DNA of 7,039 nt, from the NCBI GenBank assembly GCA_030630935.1, contig DAOVMD010000156.1:1-7039 (forward strand), read 5' to 3'. This document shows positions 146 to 7,039 of this stretch, piece after piece. The position numbers and the translations under genes were made by a program. Position 1 is the first letter of the stretch. Each line of letters begins with the position of its first letter. The stretch is from Candidatus Mcinerneyibacteriota bacterium. GTDB taxonomy: Bacteria > AUK180 > JAQVHJ01. Below the pieces are notes generated by a model, which made no database searches, was not told where the DNA came from, and saw only the letters and a list, made by a program, of their open reading frames with translations.

Positions 146-207
146 AGGATTAACATCATCACATTCCAGTTTGGCCCAGCAAGCAGGGTTTGTTATACTG
201 GTGCATG
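146..207. repeat. Diverged partial copy of the structured repeat at 5826-5887
   Basis: Positions 175-207 align without gaps to 5826-5858 with 26 of 33 bases identical, including a 15-base exact match (GCAAGCAGGGTTTGT at 179-193 and 5830-5844). Positions 148-157 (GATTAACATC) and 162-167 (CATTCC) also recur at 5868-5877 and 5882-5887, but there they lie on the other side of the 15-base block. The symmetry seen in the 5.8-kb copy is largely lost here. It is most likely a decayed or permuted member of the same intergenic repeat family. Function is unknown. Confidence 0.5.
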
Positions 208-524: not shown

Positions 525-532
525 TTGTCATA

Positions 533-3500
533 ATGACGAAGAAGGTATTAATTATATTATTACTTTTGTTTTCTTTTTCATTCATTTCCTATTCAATGAC
601 TCTCACTACGATCACGATTGATGGAGACGTTGAAGATTGGACAGCAGTTCTTCTGGATCCTGATAATTATGTTTCTGATCCGATTAAGAACTTTGGTGAC
701 CTTGACACCCCTACCATCGTACAGAGCGGGAGAGATATTACAAATTCTGCTGTAACCTGGGATAATAATTATTTATATTTTTACGTTGAGATGAATACAA
801 TAATCAGTAATATCTCCAATATCCTATTTTACCTTGATACAGATTATGATGAACGCATGAAATCGACAGATAAGGTTGTTCGTTTTATGTTCAATAATGC
901 ACAATTAAAGAGTTATTTATATAATTATGTCCCTATAGATGGCATAAACGGAGATATTATCCCTGACCCTGGTGATGGTCAGTCTCTTCCGGGTACAGTA
1001 GATTCAGGTTTAGAGAAGAGTTATTTATTTCAAAAGGGTCCTCTTTTAACCCGAATAGAAATGAGAATTCCCTGGGTAGATATTGGAATGTCCCCTGGTA
1101 ATCCATTGAATATTCATGTTTCCACTTCACGAGGAATTAATCTCCCAGGTCAAATTGAAGATAATTTAAATTTAGTTACGACCATGTATGCAGCGATTTC
1201 AATTACGCCTGATAATTTTGGTTCAACCACCGCAGGAGGTTCAGTAATTTATTCACACATAGTTCAAAATCTTGGTAATGATACAGATACATTTAATATA
1301 ACTACATCCGGGACACTCGTTGGCTGGACAGTCGGTCTATTTTCCGATTCAGGAGCAACAATCCCGCTAACTGATACAAATGGTGATGCAATAATTGATA
1401 CCGGACTATTGGCTCCCGGGGCAACTACAACTATCTATGTGAAAATTACAAGTAAAAGTAATGCGCCTACCGGGAGTACCGATAAGACTTATATAAATCT
1501 TGCATCAACAAATGAACCGGAGATAACCGATTCTACATTTGATGAGACAGTAGTAGGAGATGTTGCAATCTATCCTGCCAGAAGCGGTTTTATATCCCCG
1601 GGAGATTTTATCATATATGAATTCACAATTGTCAACAATGACATTTTGGCACATATTTTCAACATTGAAACATCCGGAACGCAGCCCAGTTGGACTGTAG
1701 GTCTTTATTCTGATTCGAGCTGTACGATTCCTCTAACCGATTCAAATTCAGACCTTATCCCTGACACAGGTAATCTTTTATCAGGTGTCAGCTTTACTTT
1801 CTATTTAAAGCTCGAAGTTCCCGGGACAGAGACACTTGGGACTATCGATACAACCCAGATTGATGTTGAAGCAGCTGATGACAACAAGATTACAGCAGAT
1901 AATTTTGCATATACCGAGGTTAAAAAAGGTATAATTATTACTCCTGATAAAACTACTGAATCGGGAACTAATTCCTATGTATTCATTGAACATTATATTC
2001 AAAATAACTTCAGTTATTCTAACACAGTAAACTTTACAATGACAGGAATTCCTCCGGGTTGGGCGGTGAAATTATTTGAATCAGATGGTGTAACTGAGTT
2101 AGTAGATAATGATGGTGATTCAAATGTTGACATTACTGATGTCTCTCCCTATGGAGAACCATATTATATAAAATCGAGAATTTATATCCCAGCCGGGGTT
2201 CCGGAAGGGATAGTCGGAGAGATAACAATAACTGCTGATTCCAATAGTGTTTCTGATACAGTTCTTGAAACAATAACTGTTCGAACTTTAATTTCATATG
2301 CATCATCGGCTTATACTAATATTAAGAAAATCTTTACAATTGGTGAGACTATTTATGTAAAGGCATCAGGAATAACCAGTGGAAAAGTTGTAATCTTATG
2401 GTTTGATAATACCCCAACCCTCGTTTATACTTCACCTGAAATTCAGGTTAATGCAAGTGGAATTGCCAAAAATGAATATGTACCTATTCCCGGTAATCAA
2501 ATAGGAGATTGGTCAATTATAATTTATGAATCAAAGAATGGTAATCCAACAGGAAGCCCGTTGGGAACTGCTTATGTAAATGTTGGGGAAATAGTTAGTT
2601 CAGGTGATACCTTAAAATTATTCCCATCCTGGTCCCCTGAAGATAATAGGGTTTCTTATATCTCAGAGACTGCAGCATTTAATGATAATTGGCATATTTA
2701 TTATTTAGATTTAACAACCTTAACTGAAACCAAACTAACTGATGTTTCGGATGTTGCGTCATTAATAGGAATAAACACTGCCCCGGAATGTGTCCATTAT
2801 TCAAAAATCAGCTGGGATCCTGACTCAAGCCCCACTGAAGGCAGGATTATTTTCGCAGCAGTTGATAAAGATGATAGCTTTGATAACTCCGAACTTTATA
2901 CGGTTAACCTGACCCAGGATGCAACAGGGAGATACCCAATTAAAAAGGTTTCCCCGGTCGGGATGTATGGAAATCCACTTGAAGGTTATGGCGGCTGGGT
3001 TGATCCTAATTGGGATAGTACAGGATTCTATGTTCCCGAAGCTGATGGTAATTGGGTTGCAGCTGCAGTCAGAGGAAATATCTTTGTATTCAAACCTGAT
3101 TCAATTACTGATGGTCCACCGTCCGCCGGTGGAAATTATAAGAAGATAATCAGAATCACTAACCTTGCTTTGAGCTCTTCCGTAGACGGGTTATTTGAAC
3201 CTATCTGGTTTACTGAAGGTTCCGACTTGAAATTAGCAGTAGTTTATAAAGGTATATCAGCTAAATCAGATGTTTATATAATTTCTAATGTTGATGATAT
3301 CATCTCTGAAACTATGGCATCACCTAATTTTGGATCACACTTGTTTGATTATTCAACTGAAGTCTCTGCACAGTACCGGGTTAATGATGTGACAGATATG
3401 ATTAAAGTGACTGAGACAATCAATCCTATTTGGGGTATAACAACTTCTCCGGACGGGTTGAAAATTTCATTCTCTGAAGATACAGCAAATATCTTTAATA

Positions 3501-4558
3501 ATAGTAATTTCTATACTTCACCTTATGCAGCACTTGTGAATACGGACTTTGATGTTTATAAAATTGATGCGTCCACTACACCAGTTCCGGTTGAGTTATT
3601 TTCTCATCCGTATGATGAAGGATTTGGAGAATGGTCAAATAACGGGCAGTATTTAATTTATATTGACCAGCCAACCGATGACGACCCAAGCCCTGGAAAT
3701 CAACATACTCTGTTCCTGAAAAAATTCTATATTGTGAACTCTATTATATTCGGAACTTCAGGCGGTGGATTCAGAAAAAATTCCAACTCGTATATTTTAA
3801 AGGATGATGCTTTCTCTTCAATTGAACTCCCAATCGATTCAATCGATTCCCCTACCCTGATCTCGATGTATGAACCGTATGGTACAAAACACCATATCAC
3901 ATTTGATTTTGAAGGCTCTATCGGGGACTTCCCGGTGATAGGAAGAGAAATAAACGGTCTGATCTATACCGGTGTAGCAAGACAATTCGACCCGATAAAT
4001 TTGAAATTAAATAACGATGCAGCAATTAATATTCATTATACCGATGCCGAATTAAAAGCTGCAAAGATTAATAAAGTCGATGAGAATTTCCTCGTGATTG
4101 CTTTTTATAATACCAGAACTAAACAATGGAAACCAATAAAGTCAAACGTTGACCTAAATAGCAATATTATATCTGCGAAATTCCATAAACTCGGGATCTT
4201 CGGTGTATTTGTAAAAAGAGCTCCGGTAGATAATAACCTGGATAATATTATCGTCTATCCGAACCCGTTCAAGGTTTCAGAAAGTCCAAACAGAGAGATT
4301 ACAATTGATAGAATTCCACATGGCTTGATTAAAGAAATTAAAATATTCAATATTGCCGGGGAACTTGTGCTTGAAGGTGAATATGGTGAATTTATTTACT
4401 TTAATTCAGATCCTTCTACACTCTTCCCGGGTTATAGAAAATGGACATGGAATTTGAAAAATAAAGATGGTAAACGAATCGCATCAGGTGTTTACATAAT
4501 CGTGATTAAAACCTATTCAGGGAAAGAAGTACATAAAAAAGCCGCGATCATTTTTTAA
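533..4558 (+). CDS. Secreted multidomain beta-propeller protein with type IX-like C-terminal sorting domain
   Basis: An exported 1341-residue protein. The first 21 residues are a signal peptide: MTKK, a run of leucine, isoleucine and phenylalanine, then a likely SYS cleavage site. No lipobox is present. Residues about 22-215 resemble a DOMON/CBM9-like beta domain ('TIDGDVEDW', 'DNNYLYFYVEM'). Residues 216-585 are three related Ig-like repeats with a GWxVxLFxDS motif (264, 386, 509) followed by an acidic loop of the form D-x-[ND]-x-D-x3-D. Another beta domain spans 586-687. From 691 to 1070 several PD40/TolB-like strands recur, for example 'PSWSPEDNRVSYIS' at 698 and 'SPDGLKISFSED' at 971, indicating a beta-propeller. 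Residues about 1093-1226 look ZU5-like. The C-terminus has VYPNPF at 1241, 'IFNIAGELV' at 1271 and 'ASGVYIIVIK' at 1317. A cell-surface or released binding protein is inferred. No catalytic motif is visible, and the ligand is unknown. Confidence 0.85.
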   Translation: MTKKVLIILLLLFSFSFISYSMTLTTITIDGDVEDWTAVLLDPDNYVSDPIKNFGDLDTPTIVQSGRDITNSAVTWDNNYLYFYVEMNTIISNISNILFYLDTDYDERMKSTDKVVRFMFNNAQLKSYLYNYVPIDGINGDIIPDPGDGQSLPGTVDSGLEKSYLFQKGPLLTRIEMRIPWVDIGMSPGNPLNIHVSTSRGINLPGQIEDNLNLVTTMYAAISITPDNFGSTTAGGSVIYSHIVQNLGNDTDTFNITTSGTLVGWTVGLFSDSGATIPLTDTNGDAIIDTGLLAPGATTTIYVKITSKSNAPTGSTDKTYINLASTNEPEITDSTFDETVVGDVAIYPARSGFISPGDFIIYEFTIVNNDILAHIFNIETSGTQPSWTVGLYSDSSCTIPLTDSNSDLIPDTGNLLSGVSFTFYLKLEVPGTETLGTIDTTQIDVEAADDNKITADNFAYTEVKKGIIITPDKTTESGTNSYVFIEHYIQNNFSYSNTVNFTMTGIPPGWAVKLFESDGVTELVDNDGDSNVDITDVSPYGEPYYIKSRIYIPAGVPEGIVGEITITADSNSVSDTVLETITVRTLISYASSAYTNIKKIFTIGETIYVKASGITSGKVVILWFDNTPTLVYTSPEIQVNASGIAKNEYVPIPGNQIGDWSIIIYESKNGNPTGSPLGTAYVNVGEIVSSGDTLKLFPSWSPEDNRVSYISETAAFNDNWHIYYLDLTTLTETKLTDVSDVASLIGINTAPECVHYSKISWDPDSSPTEGRIIFAAVDKDDSFDNSELYTVNLTQDATGRYPIKKVSPVGMYGNPLEGYGGWVDPNWDSTGFYVPEADGNWVAAAVRGNIFVFKPDSITDGPPSAGGNYKKIIRITNLALSSSVDGLFEPIWFTEGSDLKLAVVYKGISAKSDVYIISNVDDIISETMASPNFGSHLFDYSTEVSAQYRVNDVTDMIKVTETINPIWGITTSPDGLKISFSEDTANIFNNSNFYTSPYAALVNTDFDVYKIDASTTPVPVELFSHPYDEGFGEWSNNGQYLIYIDQPTDDDPSPGNQHTLFLKKFYIVNSIIFGTSGGGFRKNSNSYILKDDAFSSIELPIDSIDSPTLISMYEPYGTKHHITFDFEGSIGDFPVIGREINGLIYTGVARQFDPINLKLNNDAAINIHYTDAELKAAKINKVDENFLVIAFYNTRTKQWKPIKSNVDLNSNIISAKFHKLGIFGVFVKRAPVDNNLDNIIVYPNPFKVSESPNREITIDRIPHGLIKEIKIFNIAGELVLEGEYGEFIYFNSDPSTLFPGYRKWTWNLKNKDGKRIASGVYIIVIKTYSGKEVHKKAAIIF

Positions 4559-4561
4559 TTG

Positions 4562-4581
4562 GTAGGGGCACGGCATGCCGT
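4562..4581. repeat. GTAGGGG-type palindromic repeat in the convergent gap
   Basis: GTAGGGG (4562-4568) is followed by the perfect 12-bp palindrome ACGGCATGCCGT (4570-4581) and then ATC. It starts four bases after the stop codon of the secreted-protein gene and ends nine bases before the stop of the convergent gene. The expected closing CCCCTAC is absent, so the outer stem is incomplete. It may act as a bidirectional 3'-end structure, but the stem is short and no clear T-run follows it directly. Confidence 0.55.
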
Positions 4582-4589
4582 ATCAAAAA

Positions 4590-5555
4590 TCAGTTTATTT
4601 TATTTTTTTGGTCCACATTAATTTTGATAAAGCCATCCAACATCTCAATTTTGTGTGAAGAACAAAACTCACTAATGGGACATTTTTCTTTAAATCTGCA
4701 GAGCCTATCACTTCTCGATATAGAGCATCCGTATTTTCCGAGAATCCATAGGAATATTTCAAATTCAAGCGGGATTAATTTAATTTTATCTCTTCCAACC
4801 TTATATACTTCTTGCCAGAATTCAGCACATAAATCCTCCAGATCTAAATCTAGTGAAGTCGTAGAACCAATAATTGAACCTGACATAAAAGTTGCACGAA
4901 TAATATGTACACCTATCGGCACAGAAAGTTTTTCTACTTGTTTTAGAATTATATTGGAATTCCTTTTTAAACGAGTAATCCAGACAATAACTTTTCTTCT
5001 CTTATGATATTCTGGAAAACATTTTGAATATGGTTCCATCATCAATAAGTCAATTATTTTAAAAACATCATTATCGTAATTCTTGAATAAGGTTTGTATA
5101 TTAGAATCAAAATCACTCAGAAATTGCGCCATGTTCAACCAAATATTAATATCATTTTTCCTGGCTCTTCTCTTATCTGTTAATAGTAGATGACCAATAC
5201 TCCATTTCCGTGCTTGGAGAACATCCTCAAAAAGGTTATACTGATTTAAATCTTTTTTTAATTTTTCAATAGGGGTTTTTAATACTTGTTCCGGGTTAAA
5301 TACATACGAAGTATTTTCATCTCCCCAGGTAGTCCTTGCGGCATTCCATAATTGTTCTTCTTTTCTCAAGTATGCTATTCCGGAAACAAAGGTTAAAAAT
5401 AAGAGATGCTGATTGCTCCCCTTCTCCATATTATGTGGAATAATTTCATCTGGGATATTAATAAAATCAATTATCTCTTTCTTCTCATATGCATCCTTAA
5501 GTTTTATTATGGTCTCAATTCCCCGGTTTATGTCTTTCTTTATTTCTACTTTCAC
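4590..5555 (-). CDS. Diverged HhH-GPD (DNA glycosylase-fold)-like protein with four-cysteine tail
   Basis: A 321-residue cytoplasmic protein with no signal peptide or membrane segment. Residues 212-220 (VPIGVHIIR) fit the segment that in endonuclease III-type glycosylases reads 'AVDTHIFR' and carries the catalytic aspartate; here that position is Gly215. Residues 262-298 fit the end of the fold: 'LEFEIFLWILGKYGC' and then cysteines at 277, 286, 292 and 298, matching the place of the family's iron-sulfur loop. Spacing is C-x8-C-x5-C-x5-C, not the usual C-x6-C-x2-C-x5-C. Lys188 in 'HKRRKVIVW' may fall near the hairpin lysine, but this alignment is weak. The likely role is DNA or nucleic-acid binding, possibly repair, with doubtful lyase or glycosylase activity. 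The start is GTG at 5555; an in-frame stop lies 15 bases upstream, so the gene cannot begin earlier. No strong Shine-Dalgarno is visible. Family assignment is from motif recall and is moderate. Confidence 0.6.
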   Translation of the reverse strand: MKVEIKKDINRGIETIIKLKDAYEKKEIIDFINIPDEIIPHNMEKGSNQHLLFLTFVSGIAYLRKEEQLWNAARTTWGDENTSYVFNPEQVLKTPIEKLKKDLNQYNLFEDVLQARKWSIGHLLLTDKRRARKNDINIWLNMAQFLSDFDSNIQTLFKNYDNDVFKIIDLLMMEPYSKCFPEYHKRRKVIVWITRLKRNSNIILKQVEKLSVPIGVHIIRATFMSGSIIGSTTSLDLDLEDLCAEFWQEVYKVGRDKIKLIPLEFEIFLWILGKYGCSISRSDRLCRFKEKCPISEFCSSHKIEMLDGFIKINVDQKNKIN

Positions 5556-5614: not shown

Positions 5615-5647
5615 GAGGAAAAATCAAAAAATCAAAAATGTTAAAGT

Positions 5648-5782
5648 GTTCAAGATCAAGGTATACTTCGCATGCGTTCAAATGTTCAAGTGTTTAATAG
5701 TTCAAGTGTTAATAAAACGTTTAAGTGTTAAAACTGTTGCGATAGTTCAATAGTTTAAGTGTTAGAAAAACGTTCAAATGTT
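5648..5782. repeat. Array of degenerate 8-bp units, consensus GTTCAAGT
   Basis: Units beginning with GTT recur at 5676, 5684, 5692 and 5700 in exact 8-bp phase, then at 5708, 5719, 5727, 5736, 5745, 5753, 5761 and 5772 with steps of 8, 9 or 11 bp. A related unit stands at 5648. Six perfect matches to the 11-mer GTTYAARTGTT occur (starts 5676, 5684, 5700, 5719, 5753, 5772). Two more GTT units, GTTCAATA and GTTAGG, lie at 5897 and 5905 beyond the hairpin chain. The period is not a multiple of three and all frames are broken. A slippage-derived or binding-site array is inferred. Confidence 0.65.
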
Positions 5783-5800
5783 ATTATAGATTTTTGGAGT

Positions 5801-5881
5801 GCATTGATAAGTTTACGAATCAATGCCCTGCAAGCAGGGTTTGTACAAAGGGTGCTTGCACCACATCGATTAACATCGATG
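5801..5881. repeat. Chain of five adjacent inverted repeats
   Basis: Nearly every base of this stretch belongs to a stem or its loop. GCATTGAT (5801-5808) pairs with ATCAATGC (5819-5826). CCCTGC (5826-5831) pairs with GCAGGG (5834-5839). TTTGTACAAA (5840-5849) is a full palindrome. GGTGC (5851-5855) pairs with GCACC (5858-5862). CATCGAT (5864-5870) pairs with ATCGATG (5875-5881). In addition, TGCAAGCA (5829-5836) and TGCTTGCA (5853-5860) form a larger dyad centred exactly on TTTGTACAAA, which competes with the two small hairpins. The chain lies 48-128 bases downstream of the hemerythrin stop codon. Its role is unknown: a structured RNA 3' end, a recombination site or a decayed mobile element are all possible. 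Confidence 0.6.
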
Positions 5882-5928
5882 CATTCCTATACAATGGTTC
5901 AATAGTTAGGGTTGGAATGGTTACACTA

Positions 5929-6783
5929 TTATTCAAAATGATAATTTTTCTGTCTTTGCAATTTTTTAAATTCAGAATACAGAATTTTTTCTTCCTTATT
6001 CATATGAAGGGTTAAATCAGCGACAATCTTGCCGAATTCAACTAAGACGTCCATTTCTGAAGTTTCAGATTCGAGGTTTTCAAAGAATTCTTCAATTTTT
6101 TCTTCAAACTCATCATGTTCTTCAATAAATTCCTGAAAATTAGTCTTTAGGTCAAACACTCCCTTTGATGCTTCATTTAGAACAGCTATTAATTTTTCAT
6201 TTTCGTTATTCTTATGCTTGAGAAGCACTTCTTTAAATTTTAAAAACAACTCTTTTGAATCTTCAATGATAATACCATTATGAGTAATTTCTTTTATTAC
6301 TTTTAAAATTTCAGCATGCTCAAGAAGAAGTTCATCTACAATAGCATCACCAAAATCAAGAGGTTTGGTTACTTCAGAATTCTCAAGTGCATGCTTTTCA
6401 TATTCTTTAAATAATATCTTTTCTTCCCTTCTAACACGAATCATTAGGGCAACATAGATTTTTTCAAAATCTTCTTCAATATTAGGATACTTCGTTTCTT
6501 TCTCATAATTATTGAAAAATGCAAATACTTCATCAGATATTTCCAGCATCTCTTTTATAAACATATTAAGAATCTCTTTTTTACTTGAATTCGAATTTGC
6601 ATACTGGTACAGGACTGGATAAAAATTTTCATCTTCATTTTTTAAATGATCTGTAAAGCATTTTTTCAGTTTTGTCAGAAAGACTCTTCCTTCTTTGTTT
6701 CGAATGCCTAATGACTTAACCTTCTCCAATATCCTGATAATTGTGTTGTGTTCCTCAGTAAGTTTTTCAATGTAAACACTCAT
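5929..6783 (-). CDS. Tandem hemerythrin (HHE) domain protein, first domain degenerate
   Basis: A 284-residue soluble, mostly helical and highly charged protein with two four-helix HHE cation-binding modules. The second module (about 143-275) has a full set of candidate di-iron ligands: His156 (LLLEH), His190 and Glu194 (LLKHKNNE), His223 (EEHDEF), His260 and Glu264 (LHMNKEEKILY). The first (about 1-132) keeps His12, His46 and Glu50 ('DHLKNEDENFYP') but has no histidine in its third helix ('EISDEVFAFF') and has Arg116 where the matching 'RVRREEKILF' motif needs histidine. Proteins of this family bind or sense O2 or NO, store iron, or help repair iron-sulfur centres. Which applies here is not shown. 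The start at 6783 is chosen because AGGGAAG precedes it by 6 bases; the earlier in-frame ATG at 6837 would translate a hairpin. It lies 62 bp downstream of a secreted-protein gene on the same strand. Confidence 0.85.
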   Translation of the reverse strand: MSVYIEKLTEEHNTIIRILEKVKSLGIRNKEGRVFLTKLKKCFTDHLKNEDENFYPVLYQYANSNSSKKEILNMFIKEMLEISDEVFAFFNNYEKETKYPNIEEDFEKIYVALMIRVRREEKILFKEYEKHALENSEVTKPLDFGDAIVDELLLEHAEILKVIKEITHNGIIIEDSKELFLKFKEVLLKHKNNENEKLIAVLNEASKGVFDLKTNFQEFIEEHDEFEEKIEEFFENLESETSEMDVLVEFGKIVADLTLHMNKEEKILYSEFKKLQRQKNYHFE

Positions 6784-6845: not shown

Positions 6846-7039
6846 CTATTTAATTATTGCGATTTTTCCTGTTTTTGTCTCTGTCGGACTCTTTATAACG
6901 TAGATATAAATTCCTGAAGCTACTTTACTCCCGGAGATATTTGCTGCATTCCATCGTGCTGTATTCATTGCACTATTAATTTGAATGACATCGTCTGAAG
7001 TTGCAACTTTCTCCCCGGCAATCGAGTATATCTCAATAG
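6846..7039 (-). CDS. C-terminal end of a secreted protein with type IX-like sorting domain (partial)
   Basis: Only the last 63 residues are in the window; the gene runs past the right edge and ends with TAG at 6848-6846. The fragment shows the terminal beta-sandwich of FlgD-Ig-like or type IX-secretion C-terminal domains: 'IEIYSIAGEKV' near its start, a tryptophan strand 'ARWNA', 'SKVASGIYIYVIKS' and a final 'KTGKIAIIK'. The same motif order ends the large protein at 4558 ('IFNIAGELV', W, 'ASGVYIIVIK', 'KKAAIIF'), so both are probably exported through the same route. The function of the missing N-terminal part cannot be told. Confidence 0.8.
   Translation of the reverse strand, partial: IEIYSIAGEKVATSDDVIQINSAMNTARWNAANISGSKVASGIYIYVIKSPTETKTGKIAIIK

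Follow-up and report, generated by a model that had tools for sequence, protein, structure and literature searches.

Positions 5801–5881 of the window, the whole stretch of 7039 nucleotides analyzed here, probably form the core of a composite REPIN-like element, with inverted REP-like units as its ends and an independent palindromic repeat in its spacer. The feature extends past these positions, from the tag GGAG (5796) to ATTCC (5887), and is made up of two different repeat families, one nested within the other. Among the roles suggested by the sequence-only reading, that of a transposon-end-like DNA hairpin is favored: the units are dispersed, intergenic and tagged, they occur as inverted pairs, and their stems are compensated.

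Stem Content of the Stretch

Five inverted repeats and a larger, competing dyad had been described for this stretch, and all are present. Stem 1 is GCATTGAT/ATCAATGC (5801–5808 and 5819–5826), stem 2 is CCCTG/CAGGG (5826–5830 and 5835–5839), stem 3 is the palindrome TTTGTACAAA (5840–5849), stem 4 is GGTGC/GCACC (5851–5855 and 5858–5862), and stem 5 is CATCGAT/ATCGATG (5864–5870 and 5875–5881). The competing dyad (5829–5860) pairs TGCAAGCA (5829–5836) with TGCTTGCA (5853–5860) around TTTGTACAAA, and in the window copy it does share its center, 5844.5, with the palindrome.

Perfect non-overlapping hairpins take up 50 of the 81 bases. This coverage is matched by none of 2000 dinucleotide-preserving shuffles (mean 9.0, maximum 40), and no other 81-nt segment of the contig sampled in 5-base steps reaches it. 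The folding of both strands, proposed as a check, gives energies 3.5 to 3.9 standard deviations below shuffled sequence, with z = −3.9 for single-stranded DNA (0/200 shuffles), −3.8 for RNA of the + strand (0/200) and −3.5 for RNA of the − strand (1/200). A chance origin of the stems is rejected on these shuffles, the stem content being far beyond chance.

Structure of the Composite Element

A search of the window's own genome, a single genome of 3.16 Mb in 471 contigs that is 80% complete, returns 55 DNA matches to positions 5780–5900, the query itself included. The matches break near 5826 and 5863, thus dividing the sequence into a left (5780–5826), an inner (5826–5862) and a right (5864–5900) module. 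The left outer REP-like unit (5796–5826, + strand), defined through covariance model R1, alignment A1 and pair counts, consists of GGAG, a T and the hairpin GCATTGAT(loop 10)ATCAATGC. The right outer unit (5863–5887, − strand) belongs to the same family in inverted orientation and consists of GGAA, a T and the hairpin GCATCGAT(gtta)ATCGATGT, so that the two units are convergent with their tags outward. Between them lies the second repeat (5826–5862, + strand), which is composed of CCCTG(caag)CAGGG, the spacer TTTGTACAAA and GGTGC(tt)GCACC; it is supported by pair counts and occurs alone elsewhere.

The flanks of the element are partly conserved. The left flank GTTATTATAGATTTTT (5780–5795, + strand) is common to the copies at loci L006–L008, L016 and L018, with the consensus GTTATTGTAGATTTTT, and the right flank TATACAATGGTTC (5888–5900, + strand) is common to several copies, with the consensus GATAYAATAGTTC. 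The middle of the element varies from copy to copy: the full inner part is present in L001–L003, the first inner hairpin is duplicated in L004, only the second inner hairpin is found in L006–L009, and a 9-base spacer, AAAAACCTT, joins the left and right modules in L010, L015 and L019.

The Outer Unit and its Subfamilies

Read from the outside inwards, the left and right modules represent a single unit, with the 5′ tag GGAG or GGAA, a T and an 8-bp hairpin of the form GCATYGAT...ATYRATGC (TGCATYGAT...ATYRATGC with the T). There are approximately 70 such units of this GGAR family in the genome. Model R1 detects 62 of them at E < 0.06 and 48 at E < 2e-5, and a second pattern, which keeps the tag and base but has another stem, detects 18 units that overlap the first set in part. 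Some of the latter have long imperfect stems of 14 bp; long stems such as CACTTAAATC/GATTTAAATG contain a mismatch. Reversed-pattern controls gave 0 matches, compared with 19, 37, 35 and 18 for the real patterns. The tag is GGAG in 47, GGAA in 23 and GGAT in 3 units, a total of 73/75 that arises partly by construction, as the search demanded a near-match to the tag. Nine flank columns, GGA among them, are invariant in alignment A1.

The sequence-only reading had called for a search for copies and a covariance model, and these recover dispersed copies whose stem substitutions are compensated within the hairpins. An alignment of 38 units shows pairing in 98.0% of stem cells, the figure for shuffles being 93.9%. 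Three pairs are changed on both sides (shuffled mean 1.0; 2/500 shuffles reach three), as are 18 cells (shuffled mean 6.6; 0/500 shuffles), many of these double changes being shared by descent between left and right units. Across the wider set, the four base pairs at the foot of the stem, GCAT/ATGC, hardly vary, and stem positions 5–8 alternate between CGAT/ATCG, TGAT/ATCA, CACG/CGTG and CAGG/CCTG. Over the approximately 70 units, the stem classes are CGAT/ATCG, TGAT/ATCA, CAC(A/G)/CGTG, CAGG/CCTG and CACT/AATG; there are thus five or so subfamilies in which the tag and stem base are kept and the upper stem varies with compensation. Where left units have T-A, right units have C-G. As each hairpin retains its own Watson–Crick pair, local hairpins appear to be favored over one long dyad between the left and right units.

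The Inner Repeat

The inner repeat is a separate family with the form CCCTGCAAGCAGGG-TTTRTAAAA-GGGWGCTTGCWCCC, often followed by AGATTGCCG. It is found both nested and alone, being present without outer units at many loci, including L014, L022, L128, L130–L132 and L151. A degenerate fragment also lies at 179–205 (+ strand) of the window, where GCAAGCAGGGTTTGT is followed by TTATACTGGTGCATG, with a 15-base exact match to 5830–5844; two matches are seen in 0/200 shuffles.

The two folds with a shared center had been taken as mutually exclusive, but a designed switch built on them is not borne out by the copies. In 21 inner copies, the fold with two separate hairpins has 93.8% of its cells paired, and a U-A to A-U exchange keeps these hairpins paired in 8/21 copies. 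The rival dyad has 86.5% of cells paired, which is not above shuffles, shows no both-side changes and has broken terminal pairs in 8/21 copies. The structural switch is rejected as unsupported on this covariation, and the shared center is not a maintained feature. The dyad exists because the loops CAAG and CTTG are complementary.

Distribution

A search of 40 other genomes did not find the family, save for one marginal match (E = 0.008), and none was found in six other genomes of the same phylum. The left-unit pattern has no match in named public genomes, a search from which the host's own record may be excluded. Viral contigs, plasmids and phages gave no match, and a mobile element common to them is rejected as a candidate. 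Within the sequences searched, the family is restricted to this lineage.

Genomic Location and Promoters

The units occur singly or in pairs, and many copies are single hairpins. There are 16 convergent pairs with tags outward and none with tags inward. Of 60 units, 55 lie outside open reading frames (ORFs) of at least 100 aa and only five within them, as opposed to 71% of positions drawn at random from the same loci. Four of these five belong to one tandem array (L072/L137), in which four GGAR units with a 30-bp period immediately precede the promoter that serves a tRNA gene (L137, contig C357, 626–760). Where the gene configuration around the units is callable, by crude ORF calling, it is unidirectional in 28 cases, divergent in 12 and convergent in two.

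A strong sigma-70-type promoter pointing away from the unit is located 19–108 nt beyond the tag in 24/69 units, compared with approximately 6% in Markov sequences, and on the inner side in 8/69. Perfect TTGACA/TATAAT promoters number six outward and none inward. The CAC subfamily carries its promoter on the inner side (L121, L123 and L126). In the window, the element sits between the 3′ end of a hemerythrin-domain gene (5929–6783, − strand) and the likely promoter (5614–5586, − strand) of a 321-aa gene that starts at 5555. This promoter, TTGATT-N17-TAAAAT with TG before the −10, is assigned by consensus match only, and the element is approximately 180 bp upstream of it. The promoter bias may reflect selective survival of copies that lie between a promoter and the gene preceding it, a target preference or a function.

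Alternative Explanations

If the bias reflects function, the tagged hairpin could be a host cis-regulatory or insulator element, kept upstream of promoters as a binding site or cruciform. The excess of outward promoters, the orientation of the perfect ones and the array of tandem units before the tRNA gene would agree with this. However, such a promoter is lacking from two thirds of the flanks, the distances vary, the CAC subfamily is oriented the other way, no gene type in common is apparent, and the window copy lies well away from its promoter. The bias is equally well explained if insertions survive in the gap that separates a promoter from the preceding gene. A regulatory role is considered very unlikely. 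A classic MITE is somewhat easier to entertain, although still unlikely. In that case the 13-bp ends GGAGTGCATTGAT/ATCGATGCATTCC would mark a DDE-type transposon as its terminal inverted repeats, with movement occurring in trans and in double-stranded form, and the end hairpins would be incidental. The inverted ends are of constant sequence with the shared form GGAGTGCAT, pairs keep the same outward orientation, and in a subset of copies the similarity of the flanks reaches outward (TATTGTA...TACAATA). Yet each end is a complete hairpin in which stem changes are compensated while the tag and base stay constant, single hairpins make up many of the copies, and at one locus single units follow each other in tandem. 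No long element with convergent unit ends at transposon distance occurs among the listed unit positions, in an assembly that is fragmented at repeats, and no target-site duplication is obvious in the flanks inspected by eye, nor was an empty site established.

Two other suggestions of the sequence-only reading, an attC-like integron recombination site and a structured RNA, fare worse. The folded form, a single strand bearing two sets of arms, does recall attC, but the genome contains no integron integrase (TIGR02249) above the curated cut-off, and its below-cut-off integrase matches are of a kind also given by all 14 control genomes. Cassette arrays are absent, the copies being scattered singly or in pairs, and they share tag and stem base sequences, unlike attC sites; the probability of this origin is negligible. 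A structured RNA is set aside in turn, there being neither an Rfam RNA nor a tRNA match at the stretch and no conserved gene context.

Relation to REP/REPIN Systems

REPs, their outward-tag dimers and hairpin-bearing spacers have been defined previously (PMC3733652, PMC3116915), and the GGAR family, which resembles them in both anatomy and distribution, looks like a new relative of these mini mobile elements. As with the GTAG-tagged REPs and REPINs associated with RAYT/TnpA-REP (PMC3116915, PMC3733652, PMC8266576), the palindrome measures 20–40 bp and carries a short 5′ tag that is left unpaired. Copies occur singly, as outward-tag pairs or in clusters; they are intergenic and species-restricted; subfamilies have alternative complementary stem residues; and hairpins reside within spacers. 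In contrast to these systems, the tag is GGAR as opposed to GTAG/GTRG, approximately 70 copies is a modest number, no Y1 gene with a GGAR unit was found among the three Y1 genes of the genome, many copies lie upstream of promoters instead of downstream of genes, and a second repeat family is nested in the spacer. With a GGAR tag and a missing cognate gene, placement in the GTAG/RAYT class fails, and membership of the RAYT-linked class is not shown. A tag that is neither GTAG (GTRG) nor CGTC puts the family outside both super-families described so far. No description of GGAG-tagged REPs was found in the literature searched. The CGTC-tagged REPs (PMC3733652) are likewise tagged palindromes that form dimers and for which a dedicated transposase was not found, but they differ in tag and stems and are described mainly from Alphaproteobacteria. 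MITEs derived from IS200/IS605 similarly have subterminal hairpins at both ends, although no IS with GGAR-unit ends was found in this genome.

The movement of REPs and REPINs is attributed to Y1 (HUH) transposases, which act on them as folded single strands (PMC8266576, PMC3116915). By analogy, we infer Y1-driven movement of the GGAR units. The units would be non-autonomous mobile DNA, in which a Y1 transposase would recognize the tag and hairpin as single strands, as TnpA-REP does with REPs. Single units may be decayed pairs, and copies would persist in intergenic positions, where they are least harmful, and often a short way upstream of a promoter. Stems are packed so densely here as a side effect of two hairpin repeats being nested.

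Y1 Transposases

The genome contains three Y1 genes, at L086, L087 and L088, and the GGAR unit flanks none of them. As the genome is 80% complete and in 471 contigs, the cognate transposase may be missing from the assembly. L086 is the only IS200-like gene and lies among a different repeat, ACAAAGATATCGCTC; an in-frame array of this repeat replaces the C-terminus of its transposase ORF (L086 1030–1200, contig C247). The other two are RAYT-like Y1 genes with C-terminal helix-turn-helix (HTH) regions, L087 encoding Y1_Tnp with an HTH_23-like C-terminus.

Another repeat, AAGTAAACATAATACTG-CAACAAAATGCAACCCCCGTCCCTC, borders L087 (1350–1500 and 2338–2380, contig C338) and has approximately 30 copies in the genome. 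The gene and its repeat fit the description of the TIR families of TIRYT genes, which encode Y1 with a C-terminal HTH (PMC3733652; subclass 2.1, PMC6006769), and would amount to a TIRtron-like unit, here from a candidate phylum; in contrast to those families, the GGAG unit does not flank the L087 gene. At four loci (L275, L281, L286 and L289), the L087 repeat directly abuts a GGAG-type unit with a CAC stem, and two of these four units carry a one-base tag change. This abutment shows nesting and is not proof that the L087 enzyme moves the unit.

It is conceivable, if rather improbable, that GGAR is a third REP tag class in a deep-branching candidate phylum, mobilized by an HTH-bearing Y1 transposase of the TIRYT type, the enzyme's own repeat fusing with GGAR units that insert preferentially just upstream of promoters. 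If so, these elements could rewire transcription genome-wide. Most descriptions of REP-type repeats concern GTAG or CGTC tags, and the GGAR family widens the range of tags that hairpin-reading systems may use. In a phylum with few genomes, it has about five stem classes with compensation, nests with further palindromic repeats and sits close to promoters. Its approximately 70 units offer a compact natural data set for the co-evolution of tag, stem and enzyme. The element also illustrates how two nested repeats, and not a switch, can underlie a site that is densely packed with stems in raw sequence.

Other Features of the Window

A degenerate, AT-rich tandem sequence of the GTTCAAGTGTTCAATAGTTCAAATGTT type borders the element at 5640–5782 and 5894–5907. 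Sequence of this type also borders many element copies elsewhere and represents a further dispersed low-complexity repeat. Other palindromic repeats, GGGCGCCCGGCCGGTCGCCCCTAC and TAGGGGCACGGCATGCCGT, lie at 1–110 and 4561–4582, with near copies at many of the loci examined (e.g., L030, L124 and L174); the genome thus holds several palindromic repeat families. The 1342-aa protein encoded at 530–4558 (+ strand) is of secreted type, and its C-terminal region is type IX secretion-like, with a weak match of the last 100 residues to a PorZ model. The C-terminus of a second such protein, with a weak Por_Secre_tail match, is encoded at 6846–7037 (− strand).
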